From Capsulimonas corticalis (GTDB lineage: Bacteria; Armatimonadota; Armatimonadia; Armatimonadales; Capsulimonadaceae), in the NCBI RefSeq assembly GCF_003574315.2, contig NZ_AP025739.1, forward strand, positions 3,844,001-3,908,000: a DNA stretch of 64,000 nucleotides, given 5' to 3'. The notes below the pieces were generated by a model, which saw only the letters and a list, made by a program, of their open reading frames with translations, did no database searches and was not told where the DNA came from. Numbering within the stretch: the stretch's first letter is position 1; each line of letters opens with the position of its first letter. Positions 51,628 through 56,227 of this stretch are shown here, in pieces. A program made the position numbers and the translations under genes.

Positions 51628-51771
51628 AGGCTATGACAGAGCTTGAAGAGGCAACGATTTGTTGACACAAGTAGACGAGATTATGTTGAAACATGTAAAA
51701 AAATAATAACTAAGTGGTTCATCTCGTAACTGATGGGGTAGGAAATCTCTAGCCATTGCTGGAGGTGCCCC

Positions 51772-52341
51772 ATGTACCTAAAACTGCGTGACCTTACCGC
51801 CGAAGAACGAACGACACTGGATCGGATCGCTCGCTCGCGCACCGAAGCCGTTCGCTTAGTGGAACGCGCCAAAATGATCTTGGCGATAAATGAGGGTCAG
51901 AGTGGTCCCGAAATCGCACGGCAATTCGGCTGTGACGCCGATAAAGTCTATCGCTGGGTCCATCGGTTTTACGATCAAGGACTGGATGGGCTGCAGGACA
52001 AGCGGCGCAGTGGGCGGCCACGCATTTACACGCCTGATCAGTATGCCGAAGTCATTGGAACTGCTCTGACCAGTCCACAAGAGTTACATCTGCCCTTTGC
52101 CAGTTGGACGTTAGACCGCTTGGCGGCCTATCTCAAAGAGCAAAAGAACATTGCGATGGGGCGTAACCGTATCGATCAGATTTTGATTGCCGAAGGACTG
52201 CTTTTGATTGCCGAAGGACTGCGCTGGCAAACTCAGGAAAGCTGGTTTAGTGTCAAGACCGATCCCGATTTTAAGGCAAAAAGGGGGCGCTCGAAGCACT
52301 CTACCAGCAAGTCCCTGAAGATGCCGTTGTCGTCTGTTTAG
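51772..52341 (+). CDS. IS630 transposase, N-terminal frame
   Basis: 189 residues. It carries the helix-turn-helix DNA-binding part (GQSGPEIARQFGCDADKVYRWVHRFYDQGLDGL) and the linker. A 21-bp perfect tandem duplication (52181-52201 and 52202-52222) adds seven residues, LLIAEGL repeated. The frame is lost at A5G5 (52278-52287), where a -1 shift continues into the catalytic frame. The tail after that point (KRGRSKHSTSKS) is not transposase-like. Confidence 0.88.
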   Translation: MYLKLRDLTAEERTTLDRIARSRTEAVRLVERAKMILAINEGQSGPEIARQFGCDADKVYRWVHRFYDQGLDGLQDKRRSGRPRIYTPDQYAEVIGTALTSPQELHLPFASWTLDRLAAYLKEQKNIAMGRNRIDQILIAEGLLLIAEGLRWQTQESWFSVKTDPDFKAKRGRSKHSTSKSLKMPLSSV

Positions 52342-52346
52342 ACGAG

Positions 52347-52922
52347 ATGGGTCCCGAAGCCGCCAAAACTTATCCTGGCAAACAACTGGTTCGAACGCCA
52401 CAGGTCGGCGACGCGGCCATTCGCGCCAAATACGAAGCTGATTATGGCCGTCGCGGGAAGGGCTACTTCTTTGGAGCCTTCATCCCTGCCACAGGCCAGG
52501 CGTTCACCGCACCCTACGAACGGCGTACAGGCGAGAACTGGGTCTGTTTTCTCGAACAGGTTGATCAATGGGAGCCTTGCCAGGGCAAGCGCGTCCTCGC
52601 CATTACGGACAATCTTGGTTCGCATTTGGGCACGGATGCCCAGCTCTTTTCTGCGGAACACGCGCACTGGGAATTTGTTTTCACGCCAAAATACGCGCCG
52701 TACCTGAACCTGATCGAGCCCTGGTGGAAAATCCTGCGCTCGCTGGCGCTCAAAGGACGCCGCTTCGAAACCTTTGAGCAAATATGCACAGCGGTCGAAG
52801 CGGCGACCGATTACTGGAACCATCATCGACACCCATTTCAGTGGGGACATCGACGGCGGCATTTACATCACAGGCAGCCAGGCATAGCGCAAACACCGAC
52901 TGCCGTAGCAATTACGAGATGA
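52347..52922 (+). CDS. IS630 transposase, DDE catalytic frame
   Basis: 191 residues from the first ATG, but the homologous frame begins upstream at about 52281. The first catalytic Asp (VVVCLDEMGP) lies mostly before this ATG, so a functional enzyme requires the -1 frameshift from the upstream frame. ITDNLGSH and PYLNLIEPWWK supply the second Asp and the Glu. If the A5G5 run is a programmed slippage site, the element may be active; if it is an indel, the element is dead. Confidence 0.85.
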   Translation: MGPEAAKTYPGKQLVRTPQVGDAAIRAKYEADYGRRGKGYFFGAFIPATGQAFTAPYERRTGENWVCFLEQVDQWEPCQGKRVLAITDNLGSHLGTDAQLFSAEHAHWEFVFTPKYAPYLNLIEPWWKILRSLALKGRRFETFEQICTAVEAATDYWNHHRHPFQWGHRRRHLHHRQPGIAQTPTAVAITR

Positions 52923-52982
52923 ACCACTTAGTAAACAGGTATAATTGGATTTGCGGTTATGAAGTATATAAGGGGAAATAAG

Positions 52983-54133: not shown

Positions 54134-55927
54134 CTACAGTTCATCGGATTCTAACAGGTGAATCACTATAGACGCTGTGTTTCTCATAGCAACCTTCCGT
54201 AATATACCAATGGGTTCGACTGCGTCCAGTGCACCTTTATCGCAACTCGCATTATCCGATATGCCTCGGAAAAACAAGGTTCGTATTTTATCGGATTTTA
54301 GGCTATTCCTCGTCTCAACAGCCACATGCATACCAGCCGATTTCATTTCGACTACGCTATTACCTCTAGCAGCTAAAACAGGATGCCAGCTTTTTCCTGC
54401 TGCTACCGCATCGCTTGATGCAAACGCTACGCAATGCAATGTGACGATATCGTCATGATCAAGTACAGAATCCTTAATTTCGTCTGGTATTTTCTTAATG
54501 ATGTTATAAATGTTTCGGAAGTTGACCTGAATCTCGTTCCTCTTTTCTTCGAAAACACTTTGTATTATCTTGATAAGATCCTCATCCGCTGTGTAAAGCC
54601 TGAGCGGGCTTTCCCCAATATTGGTAATAGATGTGTCTTCAAGATAAGGATCTACTGTCTTGGCAACAGCGACATCACAAACCTTAATATCCTCACTTAG
54701 GCTACCACCCACGCCAATCAAAATCAGTAATTGCAGATTTGGACAAGTGTTCAAGAAAGTATTCGTAGCAAGGGCTGTTTGCACTAATCCCATATCTCCT
54801 ATGAATTGGCACGCGCACTGCTTTTTGCCCAATTCAAAAGAATATAGAAATCGGTCCTCATTAGAATCATAATGAGGGTTAAGAGAAACAGGTAACTGCT
54901 CCGAAAAATATCCAAATTCCTCTTCTAGAGGAACTAGTATCCCAACCTCCACCTTCTCTGGCTTAGAAAGATTGGCTAGCGATTCGCTTTTGAATTTCAA
55001 CATCCATGCCATGAAGTAGCATGCATTCTGGAAGGCGCATTTCTGCGAATGCTTTCGAATTGGCTGAATTTTTTCTCTCGTTTCATCGCAAAAATCGGCT
55101 GCTGCACGAATAACGATTGTCTTTATTTGATTGGTCGAGCGTCTCTGGTTGTGCATCCATATTGCTGCCATCATTCCTCCGCTCTCCATATCAAGCATAA
55201 GTAGTTTGCGGTCCCGTGCTTTCACCCAGCCTACAGCTGTAGCAGTTGTCGATAGGAGAGTAGCAGATGCGAGGTGTGGCGTATGAATTCCGATAGTGTC
55301 TTGTCTCATAAACTCAAGGATATTACTATCAAAGTTCTGGTCTCTTCTCACTCTTAGACAATTTTGTCGGAAGTCTTCGAATCCTTTAGGATCAAGATAC
55401 ATCATGTTTTGGGCAAGGCGAACGAATTCCAATGTGGGGCGGTACACCTCGCCAGAGAACTCAACTCGCTGGTCATTTCCTGTCTTTTGAGTTTCACTCT
55501 TTGGGTTATCTGATAATTTGGCTTTCTCCATATAACAGTCGATTTGTGATGCAATGCCAACGTCACCAATTTTGAACTCATCACCCTTCAGGGTGCCACA
55601 GAATCCGATTAAAATGATGCGATCTATCCGATAATTGCATTTGCCATCATTTGCCAGTGTCGAAAAATATTCTAGGATTAATTGAGTTGTAATGGCTGTG
55701 AAGTCTATACGCTTTGCCTGAATCAGAAACGCGAATGCTTGTCTATTTTCATAGCGCGTCCGGAACCTGCAAAACGGTATGTCCGGCAAATTTTTCCATG
55801 ATTCGATATGGATTTTATCGGCCGTCAGGATTTCATGGATACCTTCGTTCCAAAATGTCCATGCATGTGTTGGCAACAGGTAGATATCAATCTCTTCTTG
55901 TCCAGATGATTCGGTTTCAGTGGTCAC
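54134..55927 (-). CDS. Tandem nucleoside-phosphorylase/nucleosidase-fold protein (PNP_UDP superfamily)
   Basis: 597 residues from GTG 55927, fixed by GGAGGT 5 bp upstream. Two MTA/SAH-nucleosidase-like domains follow each other. The second (about 320-597) has VGILVPLEEEFGYF, IGVGGSLSEDIKVCDVAVA, VVEMKSAGMHVA and RGISDNASCDKG with the catalytic Asp. The first (about 10-305) has LIGFCGTLKGDEFKIGDVGIA, LMLDMESGGMMAA and VIRAAADFCDE, but no acidic EEE loop. Domain 2 has Lys where the family keeps a ribose-binding Glu after VEM. Stand-alone cytoplasmic enzymes of this fold hydrolyse nucleosides; related domains serve as ATP-degrading immune effectors. The low GC content, the protease neighbour and the tRNA/IS borders point to an acquired conflict gene (inference). 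Confidence 0.82.
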   Translation of the reverse strand: MTTETESSGQEEIDIYLLPTHAWTFWNEGIHEILTADKIHIESWKNLPDIPFCRFRTRYENRQAFAFLIQAKRIDFTAITTQLILEYFSTLANDGKCNYRIDRIILIGFCGTLKGDEFKIGDVGIASQIDCYMEKAKLSDNPKSETQKTGNDQRVEFSGEVYRPTLEFVRLAQNMMYLDPKGFEDFRQNCLRVRRDQNFDSNILEFMRQDTIGIHTPHLASATLLSTTATAVGWVKARDRKLLMLDMESGGMMAAIWMHNQRRSTNQIKTIVIRAAADFCDETREKIQPIRKHSQKCAFQNACYFMAWMLKFKSESLANLSKPEKVEVGILVPLEEEFGYFSEQLPVSLNPHYDSNEDRFLYSFELGKKQCACQFIGDMGLVQTALATNTFLNTCPNLQLLILIGVGGSLSEDIKVCDVAVAKTVDPYLEDTSITNIGESPLRLYTADEDLIKIIQSVFEEKRNEIQVNFRNIYNIIKKIPDEIKDSVLDHDDIVTLHCVAFASSDAVAAGKSWHPVLAARGNSVVEMKSAGMHVAVETRNSLKSDKIRTLFFRGISDNASCDKGALDAVEPIGILRKVAMRNTASIVIHLLESDEL

Positions 55928-56100
55928 AATACACCTCCGTCGAGTAGTCAGCTTTGATTGAATGAAGATCACGAATTATAGGAAAACCTGCTGATTTGTA
56001 CTATGCTGCAGAATGGATTTCCTCTGCTTAAGACTACCCGGCCAATGCCGCCTTTGAATTACTTCTATCTTGCGGGCGCTTACATGGAAGAAAGTACTAA

Positions 56101-56144
56101 AAAAAGCCATCCTACAGATAGAAACATCTGTAGGATGGCTTTTT
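56101..56144 (-). terminator. Terminator after the initiator tRNA gene
   Basis: GCCATCCTACAGAT (56106-56119) pairs with ATCTGTAGGATGGC (56126-56139), followed on the minus strand by a T-run, 7 bp beyond the tRNA 3' end. Confidence 0.9.
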
Positions 56145-56150
56145 ATTGTG

Positions 56151-56227
56151 TGGGAGCGGGGGTTGGACTTGAACCAACGACCTTCGGGTTATGAGCCCGA
56201 CGAGCTACCGGACTGCTCCACCCCGCG
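56151..56227 (-). tRNA. Initiator tRNA-fMet (anticodon CAT)
   Basis: A 77-nt cloverleaf on the minus strand with CCA encoded (56151-56153). The 5' end CGCGGGGTGGAGCAG and anticodon arm CGGGCTCATAACCCG, with three G-C pairs, are initiator hallmarks. Position 1 (C) is unpaired with position 72 (T), as required for formylation. The 3' end faces the AT-rich accessory segment, a common integration arrangement, but I found no repeated 3'-end copy on the far side. Confidence 0.95.

Follow-up and report, generated by a model that had tools for sequence, protein, structure and literature searches.

This report concerns a window of 64,000 nucleotides (nt) from the single-contig, 7.65-Mb genome of Capsulimonas corticalis (positions 3,844,001 to 3,908,000), and in particular two AT-rich genes that lie in it between an IS630-family insertion sequence and a tRNA-Met gene. 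The first gene (window positions 52983–53777, + strand) opens with an ATG at 52983, has an intact frame, and encodes a stand-alone trypsin-like (chymotrypsin-fold) serine protease of 264 amino acids (aa). The second (54134–55927, − strand) starts with a GTG at 55927 that is preceded by the Shine–Dalgarno-like motif GGAGG, and its intact frame specifies a 597-aa protein with two tandem domains of the PNP/MTAN fold. The two genes are convergent and therefore do not form an operon. Between them is a terminator-like hairpin (53888–53916, − strand), in which 13 pairs are followed by a run of T residues on the − strand, in agreement with the consensus. Seven terminator-like matches occur in the region, compared with 5.1 expected from shuffled sequences, which is near chance level. 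We consider it fairly probable that the locus holds two independent accessory genes of a defense type that lie convergently, and not a module built from a protease and a nucleosidase.

Both genes stand apart from their surroundings in base composition. The window has a guanine-plus-cytosine (GC) content of 59%, whereas the protease and tandem PNP genes have 42%–43%, and the 1-kb bins covering 53001–56000 give values of 42.1%, 43.5%, and 43.2%. Across the remaining window, the mean for 1-kb windows is 60.0% (standard deviation 4.1, minimum 48.5%). GC content at third codon positions is 34% for the protease gene and 42% for the PNP gene, compared with 75% for queA and 82% for a glycosyltransferase gene. 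An earlier first-pass annotation of this DNA had described the two genes as AT-richer than all of their neighbors and as lying between an insertion sequence and a tRNA gene. The composition agrees with the first statement, and the second is borne out by the location of the IS630 repeats and of the tRNA-Met gene.

The AT-rich patch extends approximately from 51628 to 56150, as judged from the GC profile and from the mismatch to a genome of the same genus. GC content is 35% at 51628–51708 and 32% at 52933–52982, and from there it is mostly 36%–50% up to 56150, with a stretch of 54% between the two genes (53926–54133). Only one same-genus genome (G001) was compared, and in this 69% complete genome neither the protease gene nor the PNP gene was found. 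The match to its queA-bearing contig starts at window position 56390, and the contig ends within ∼25 bases there. Another of its contigs carries a DinB-like gene (named by eye); the match to this contig stops at 51105 and is followed by ∼3.5 kb unlike the window. As judged by these alignments, the patch between the DinB-like gene and queA is accessory, and it was apparently acquired.

The protease was aligned with family members from 31 of 36 loci; L054, L056, L066, L068, and L073 were left out because they were cut, frame-shifted, or missed by the open reading frame (ORF) picker. Residues H56, D110, and S208 and the motif GMSGGP are invariant in all 32 aligned sequences, and the order of these residues and the surrounding motifs indicate that they probably constitute the catalytic triad. 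An AlphaFold2 model computed from the same alignment has a predicted local distance difference test score (pLDDT) of 93.6. When this model was compared with the PDB by VIA-align, the top 50 rows were all trypsin-like protease folds (Z 15.7–17.3, root mean square deviation 3.3–4.1, 195–214 residues aligned). Among the Foldseek matches listed, the best E-value was 6.7e-7 (plant Deg1), with TM scores of 0.39–0.56 by query length. The predicted fold is clearly a chymotrypsin-like double β-barrel. The Pfam model Trypsin_2 (PF13365) scores the protein at 12.9 bits, below its cutoff of 27.6, and in all six family members scanned singly the match was either sub-threshold or absent. No signal peptide was seen by eye (no predictor was run), and the first-pass annotation is upheld in describing a signal-less protease whose triad is intact. 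The PADLOC model for LmuA touches the protein at E 2.6e-4.

Protease-family genes were found at 36 loci in genome_contigs and on four plasmids. By record titles they belong to Pseudomonadota, Planctomycetota, Chloroflexota, Armatimonadota, and others. No match was found in 57 of 60 other relatives, no relative was confirmed in viral_contigs, and none was present in phages. With one distant phylum locus, the genome_contigs and plasmid loci make up 41 loci totaling 571 kb. No neighbor of the protease recurs in more than three loci, and among 138 neighboring ORFs (39 loci, up to two ORFs per side, each at least 110 aa) no Pfam family occurs in more than four.

Several individual neighborhoods have a defense character. 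In a Mesorhizobium locus (L055, 2950–8789), the protease-family gene is the fifth gene of a Qat operon and overlaps qatD by 4 nt. The gene order is qatA, a gene that occupies the qatB position, qatC, qatD, and the protease gene; QatA was recognized by its model, TatD and QueC domains were found, and qatB was assigned from position only. In L010 the protease gene lies downstream from a gene with TPR, GreAB-C, and PIN domains, and L061 has two upstream gene families in common with L010. A BrxH-like gene adjoins the protease gene in L050, and a CBASS-type nuclease domain adjoins it in L039. Defense models run over the 138 neighbors matched one member each for QatC, QatD, HamA, and DruA, and one member per model for HamB. 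HamA, HamB, and DruA were not recovered among 30 neighbor proteins tried one by one. A DEDDh exonuclease gene was also noted beside the protease gene at two loci whose record titles point to unrelated lineages, L042 (6927–8852) and L066 (7998–9678, where the protease is split over two frames), and these loci may represent a second kind of nuclease–protease neighborhood.

The tandem PNP protein divides into an amino-terminal half (aa 1–320; 54968–55927, − strand) and a carboxy-terminal half (aa 321–597; 54137–54967, − strand). Against Pfam family PF01048 (cutoff 25.1 bits), the whole protein scores 60.7 bits and the C-terminal half 46.6 bits (E 3.6e-12), whereas the very divergent N-terminal half scores 18.6 bits (E 0.0013) and falls below the cutoff. 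In searches of a set of 136 proteins, a PNP protein linked to a prokaryotic Argonaute (pAgo) matches both the C-terminal half (E 7e-17) and the N-terminal half (E 3e-15), and the two halves match each other at ∼1e-7. The presence of two PNP domains, another claim of the first-pass annotation, is thus secure by Pfam for the second half, and for the first half it is backed by the match to the pAgo-linked protein, with Pfam alone remaining sub-threshold.

A tree built from 48 domain frames places the two halves as sisters (support 0.82), and the branch of the N-terminal half is about twice as long. The clade that they share with the pAgo-linked PNP and two additional PNPs has a support of 0.98 and is separate from E. 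coli MTAN. This placement fits an origin of the protein by intragenic duplication of a defense-type PNP domain (Cap17-like).

No close relative of the tandem protein was found. All 60 of the other relatives searched lack a match to it, and it matches only itself among the 291 genomes of its own phylum. Of 343 genomes from another phylum (Planctomycetes), one has a match, and this is the operon that carries the pAgo-linked PNP. No relatives were confirmed in genome_contigs or viral_contigs. In plasmids no match reached E 1e-3; with the threshold relaxed to E 10 there were sixteen weak matches, of which fifteen fell in TIR-domain genes. Phages gave two weak matches at E 7. A three-row profile, in which one row is flawed by a misplaced N terminus of the first PNP domain, matches 9 of 291 and 118 of 398 genomes, mostly on short conserved stretches, and no second frame with two PNP copies is found among the profile matches listed. 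Likewise, no published tandem PNP protein of such a kind stood out among the literature matches listed.

The pAgo–PNP operon (L080, 5273–9282, genome G515) consists of a Piwi-domain pAgo gene (793 aa, Piwi E 3e-12) that overlaps the next gene by 4 nt, and this second gene encodes a 543-aa protein with a C-terminal PNP domain. The operon is of the kind listed as Cap17(pAgo) in a table of PMC10952713. The genome from which the window is taken also encodes, at ∼773 kb, a 1078-aa NLR-like protein with an N-terminal PNP domain, an AAA_22 NTPase domain, and TPR repeats (L074, 8716–11952); its PNP domain matches PDC-M60C (E 1.4e-19) and lies below the Pfam cutoff. At a further locus (L146, 1219–12903, genome G851), an HsdS-like gene (named by eye) is accompanied by a 1209-codon frame, and the 2065-codon frame that comes next begins with a PNP match.

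The catalytic residues of MTAN are Glu12, Glu174, and Asp197 (E. coli MTAN numbering). Among comparators with a letter at the respective position, Glu12 is present in 45 of 45, Glu174 in 46 of 46, and Asp197 in 46 of 46. These counts derive from 47 PNP frames found by related models rather than by random draw; one or two of the frames are gapped at the counted positions, and three genes are counted twice (L021/L074, L120/L145, and L121/L146). The C-terminal domain of the tandem protein keeps the equivalents of Glu12 and Asp197 and has Lys in place of Glu174, inside an ungapped motif (VEMK). The N-terminal domain keeps the equivalents of Glu174 and Asp197 and has Ile at position 12 and Glu at position 11, behind a 9-residue insertion. 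Because Glu174 is lost from the C-terminal domain and the alignment shows no Glu12 in the N-terminal one, at most one of the two domains looks competent as a standard nucleosidase. The same differences weaken the idea that this protein degrades ATP.

These residue changes are also the starting point of the rival explanation that survives best, according to which the tandem protein is a pseudoenzyme or a decaying gene devoid of nucleosidase activity that would act as a sponge or a nucleotide sensor or would simply be a relic. Such a state would agree with a Lys where 46 of 46 comparators carry Glu, with the Glu12 that is missing from the N-terminal domain by alignment, with the long N-terminal branch, and with the lack of relatives in the 290 other genomes of the phylum. 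However, the frame of 597 codons is intact and is preceded by a plausible ribosome-binding motif, and the N-terminal domain retains two of the three catalytic positions. We regard this explanation as possible but unlikely.

The first-pass annotation had further suggested that the two genes could form a compact defense or abortive-infection module in which the protease acts on or activates the nucleosidase. On this view, the tandem PNP protein would be switched on through cleavage by the protease and would then deplete ATP. Both genes are indeed intact, adjacent, and equally AT-rich, and both protein families occur in defense-type contexts elsewhere, as the first-pass annotation had stated: the protease in the neighborhoods described above and the PNP domain beside pAgo. 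A precedent for an effector activated by a protease exists in the pairs of a trypsin-like protease and a metallo-β-lactamase (MBL) nuclease described in PMC12799240. In contrast, the genes are convergent, a catalytic residue is missing from each PNP domain by alignment, and the pair does not recur. When the 41 other protease loci were searched with a PNP model, over up to 8 kb per side and with 16 loci shortened by contig ends, no PNP domain was found. This model recovers E. coli MTAN and PNPs of the NLR-like, PDC-M60C, and pAgo-linked types, most of which were themselves part of the model or had contributed to finding it.

Other searches for the pair gave the same picture. The protease model found no protease in PNP loci outside the window, and the tandem PNP protein, when searched against 665 ORFs of 44 loci, matched only the window's own gene. 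A Pfam scan of the 138 neighboring ORFs placed PNP_UDP_1 in at most one member. PNPs are encoded in 32 of the 38 genomes or records with protease loci, as expected of a common family; since the distance between PNP and protease genes could be judged only on contigs that are chromosomes, this count was not used as a test of the pair. No partner sensor gene of the kind present in a Cap17-type operon lies between IS630 and queA. The first-pass annotation had named the lack of a shared neighborhood in related genomes as a finding that would refute its proposal, and in the comparison that could be made, from the protease side only, such a neighborhood is lacking. The protease–PNP pair as a module is not supported by these comparisons, and we judge it improbable. 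Least probable is that neither gene has a defense role, with the protease serving housekeeping or the stress response and the PNP protein serving salvage; ordinary genes beside the protease family and the lack of any widely recurring Pfam family among its neighbors would accord with this, but the patchy, cross-phylum distribution of the protease, its defense neighbors in several loci, the alien composition of both genes, and the clade placement of the PNP domains speak against it.

Two independent defense-type accessory genes thus remain the reading that we favor. Several points weigh against it. The enrichment of the protease family in defense islands is suggested by neighbors that were counted without a base-rate control, and ordinary genes, including those for HSP70, CTP synthase, malonate decarboxylase, and others, also adjoin members of the family. 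The AT-rich composition shared by both genes leaves a single joint transfer possible. The tandem protein lacks a close relative, so that recurrence with the protease is testable from the protease side only, and within the PNP clade a link to defense was tested, apart from the tandem protein, for the pAgo-linked PNP only. The loss of Glu12 from the N-terminal domain hinges on the register of a gapped alignment, with a Glu one position away. Finally, a single-sequence fold prediction of the tandem protein (pLDDT 32.9) is uninformative.

For the trigger, substrate, partner, and protective effect of both genes, we infer the following from their sequences and contexts. The protease would be a cytoplasmic, stand-alone enzyme that serves as an accessory effector or activator and cuts a partner protein once a neighboring or unlinked immune system fires. 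A model for such a role is provided by the trypsin-like domains in Hachiman and AVAST that PMC12799240 describes. The protease family, seen beside Qat and other defense genes, is a candidate for an exchangeable component of immune systems, comparable to the trypsin–nuclease pairs in the literature. In the tandem PNP protein, the fast-evolving N-terminal domain, with its equivalents of Glu174 and Asp197, may be the catalytic or substrate-binding part, and the C-terminal domain, with Lys for Glu174, may be a regulatory pseudo-domain. If active, the protein would cleave a purine nucleotide (ATP or dATP) in infected cells.

A bolder version of this proposal is that the tandem protein is a C1/C2-like pseudo-heterodimer within one chain. 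Each domain would have lost a different catalytic residue after the duplication, such that one site cleaves the nucleotide and the second site, by binding it, serves as an allosteric sensor. We think this rather doubtful. If true, the protein would unite sensor and effector in itself and would require no partner of the STAND, pAgo, or two-component kind. For a nucleotide-depleting immune effector, a tandem PNP in a single chain, with a catalytic residue changed in each domain, would be architecturally unusual. The simple prediction is that only one domain binds or cleaves nucleotide and that the other regulates. For specialists, the interest of the locus lies in a double PNP protein whose catalytic residues are changed in the second domain and probably in the first.

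Comparison with known systems reveals likenesses and differences for both proteins. Cap17 is listed in CBASS, Detocs, pAgo, DRT8, and NLR-like systems (table of PMC10952713). The tandem protein resembles Cap17-type effectors in having the PNP_UDP_1 fold, and its closest relative found is the pAgo-linked PNP. Unlike these effectors, it has two PNP domains per chain, each missing one catalytic Glu by alignment, and no NTPase, receiver, or pAgo partner is present among the neighboring genes scanned here. Pairs of a trypsin-like protease and an MBL nuclease occur in Hachiman, AVAST, Lamassu, and DRT systems, according to PMC12799240. The window protease shares with them its type, a defense context, and the match to the LmuA model. 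However, it is a protein of 264 aa that consists of a protease domain only and is not fused to HamA, Avs1a, or LmuA, which distinguishes it from pairs of the HamM/HamA type; in addition, IS630 lies upstream of it and no MBL family is found among the neighbors scanned. Nucleoside triphosphate-dependent conflict systems include both trypsin and PNPase effector domains (PMC7159879), whereas no NTPase or vWA domain is present among the window neighbors scanned. The likeness to Qat, as defined by PADLOC models, is confined to the family: a member follows qatA, qatC, and qatD in the Mesorhizobium locus, whereas the scanned neighbors of the window protease include no Qat-like domain.

The IS630-family element (51709–52932, + strand) lies inside the patch. 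It is bounded by inverted repeats of 33 nt (51709–51741 and 52900–52932, 85% complementary), and its transposase is split over two frames (51772–52341 and 52347–52922) with HTH_29/HTH_32 and DDE_3 domains. Four near-identical copies, including this one, are present in the genome, and the other three are almost full-length. Because of these copies and because DNA of 32%–35% GC flanks the element on both sides, IS630 probably hopped into the patch recently and as a separate event, which tells little about how the patch arrived. On the same two observations, IS630 was rejected as the carrier of the patch. A perfect 21-nt tandem duplication is located within the transposase frame (52181–52222), and the frame changes near 52341.

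At the opposite border, the tRNA-Met gene (anticodon CAT; 56151–56227, − strand) faces the patch with its 3′ end. Its anticodon stem reads GGG-CUCAUAA-CCC, which we take to be the initiator signature, and the tRNA is hence presumably initiator-like. A tRNA-borne integrative island was considered and rejected, since no integrase was found among the patch proteins scanned and no attachment repeat in the window. A search of the window for exact copies of the tRNA-Met gene of at least 12 nt found none elsewhere in it. Near the end of the window, a stretch at ∼59.3–60.7 kb is mostly missing from the same-genus contig, and it overlaps the region of an IS3-like transposase frame (recognized by eye) at 59370–60305.

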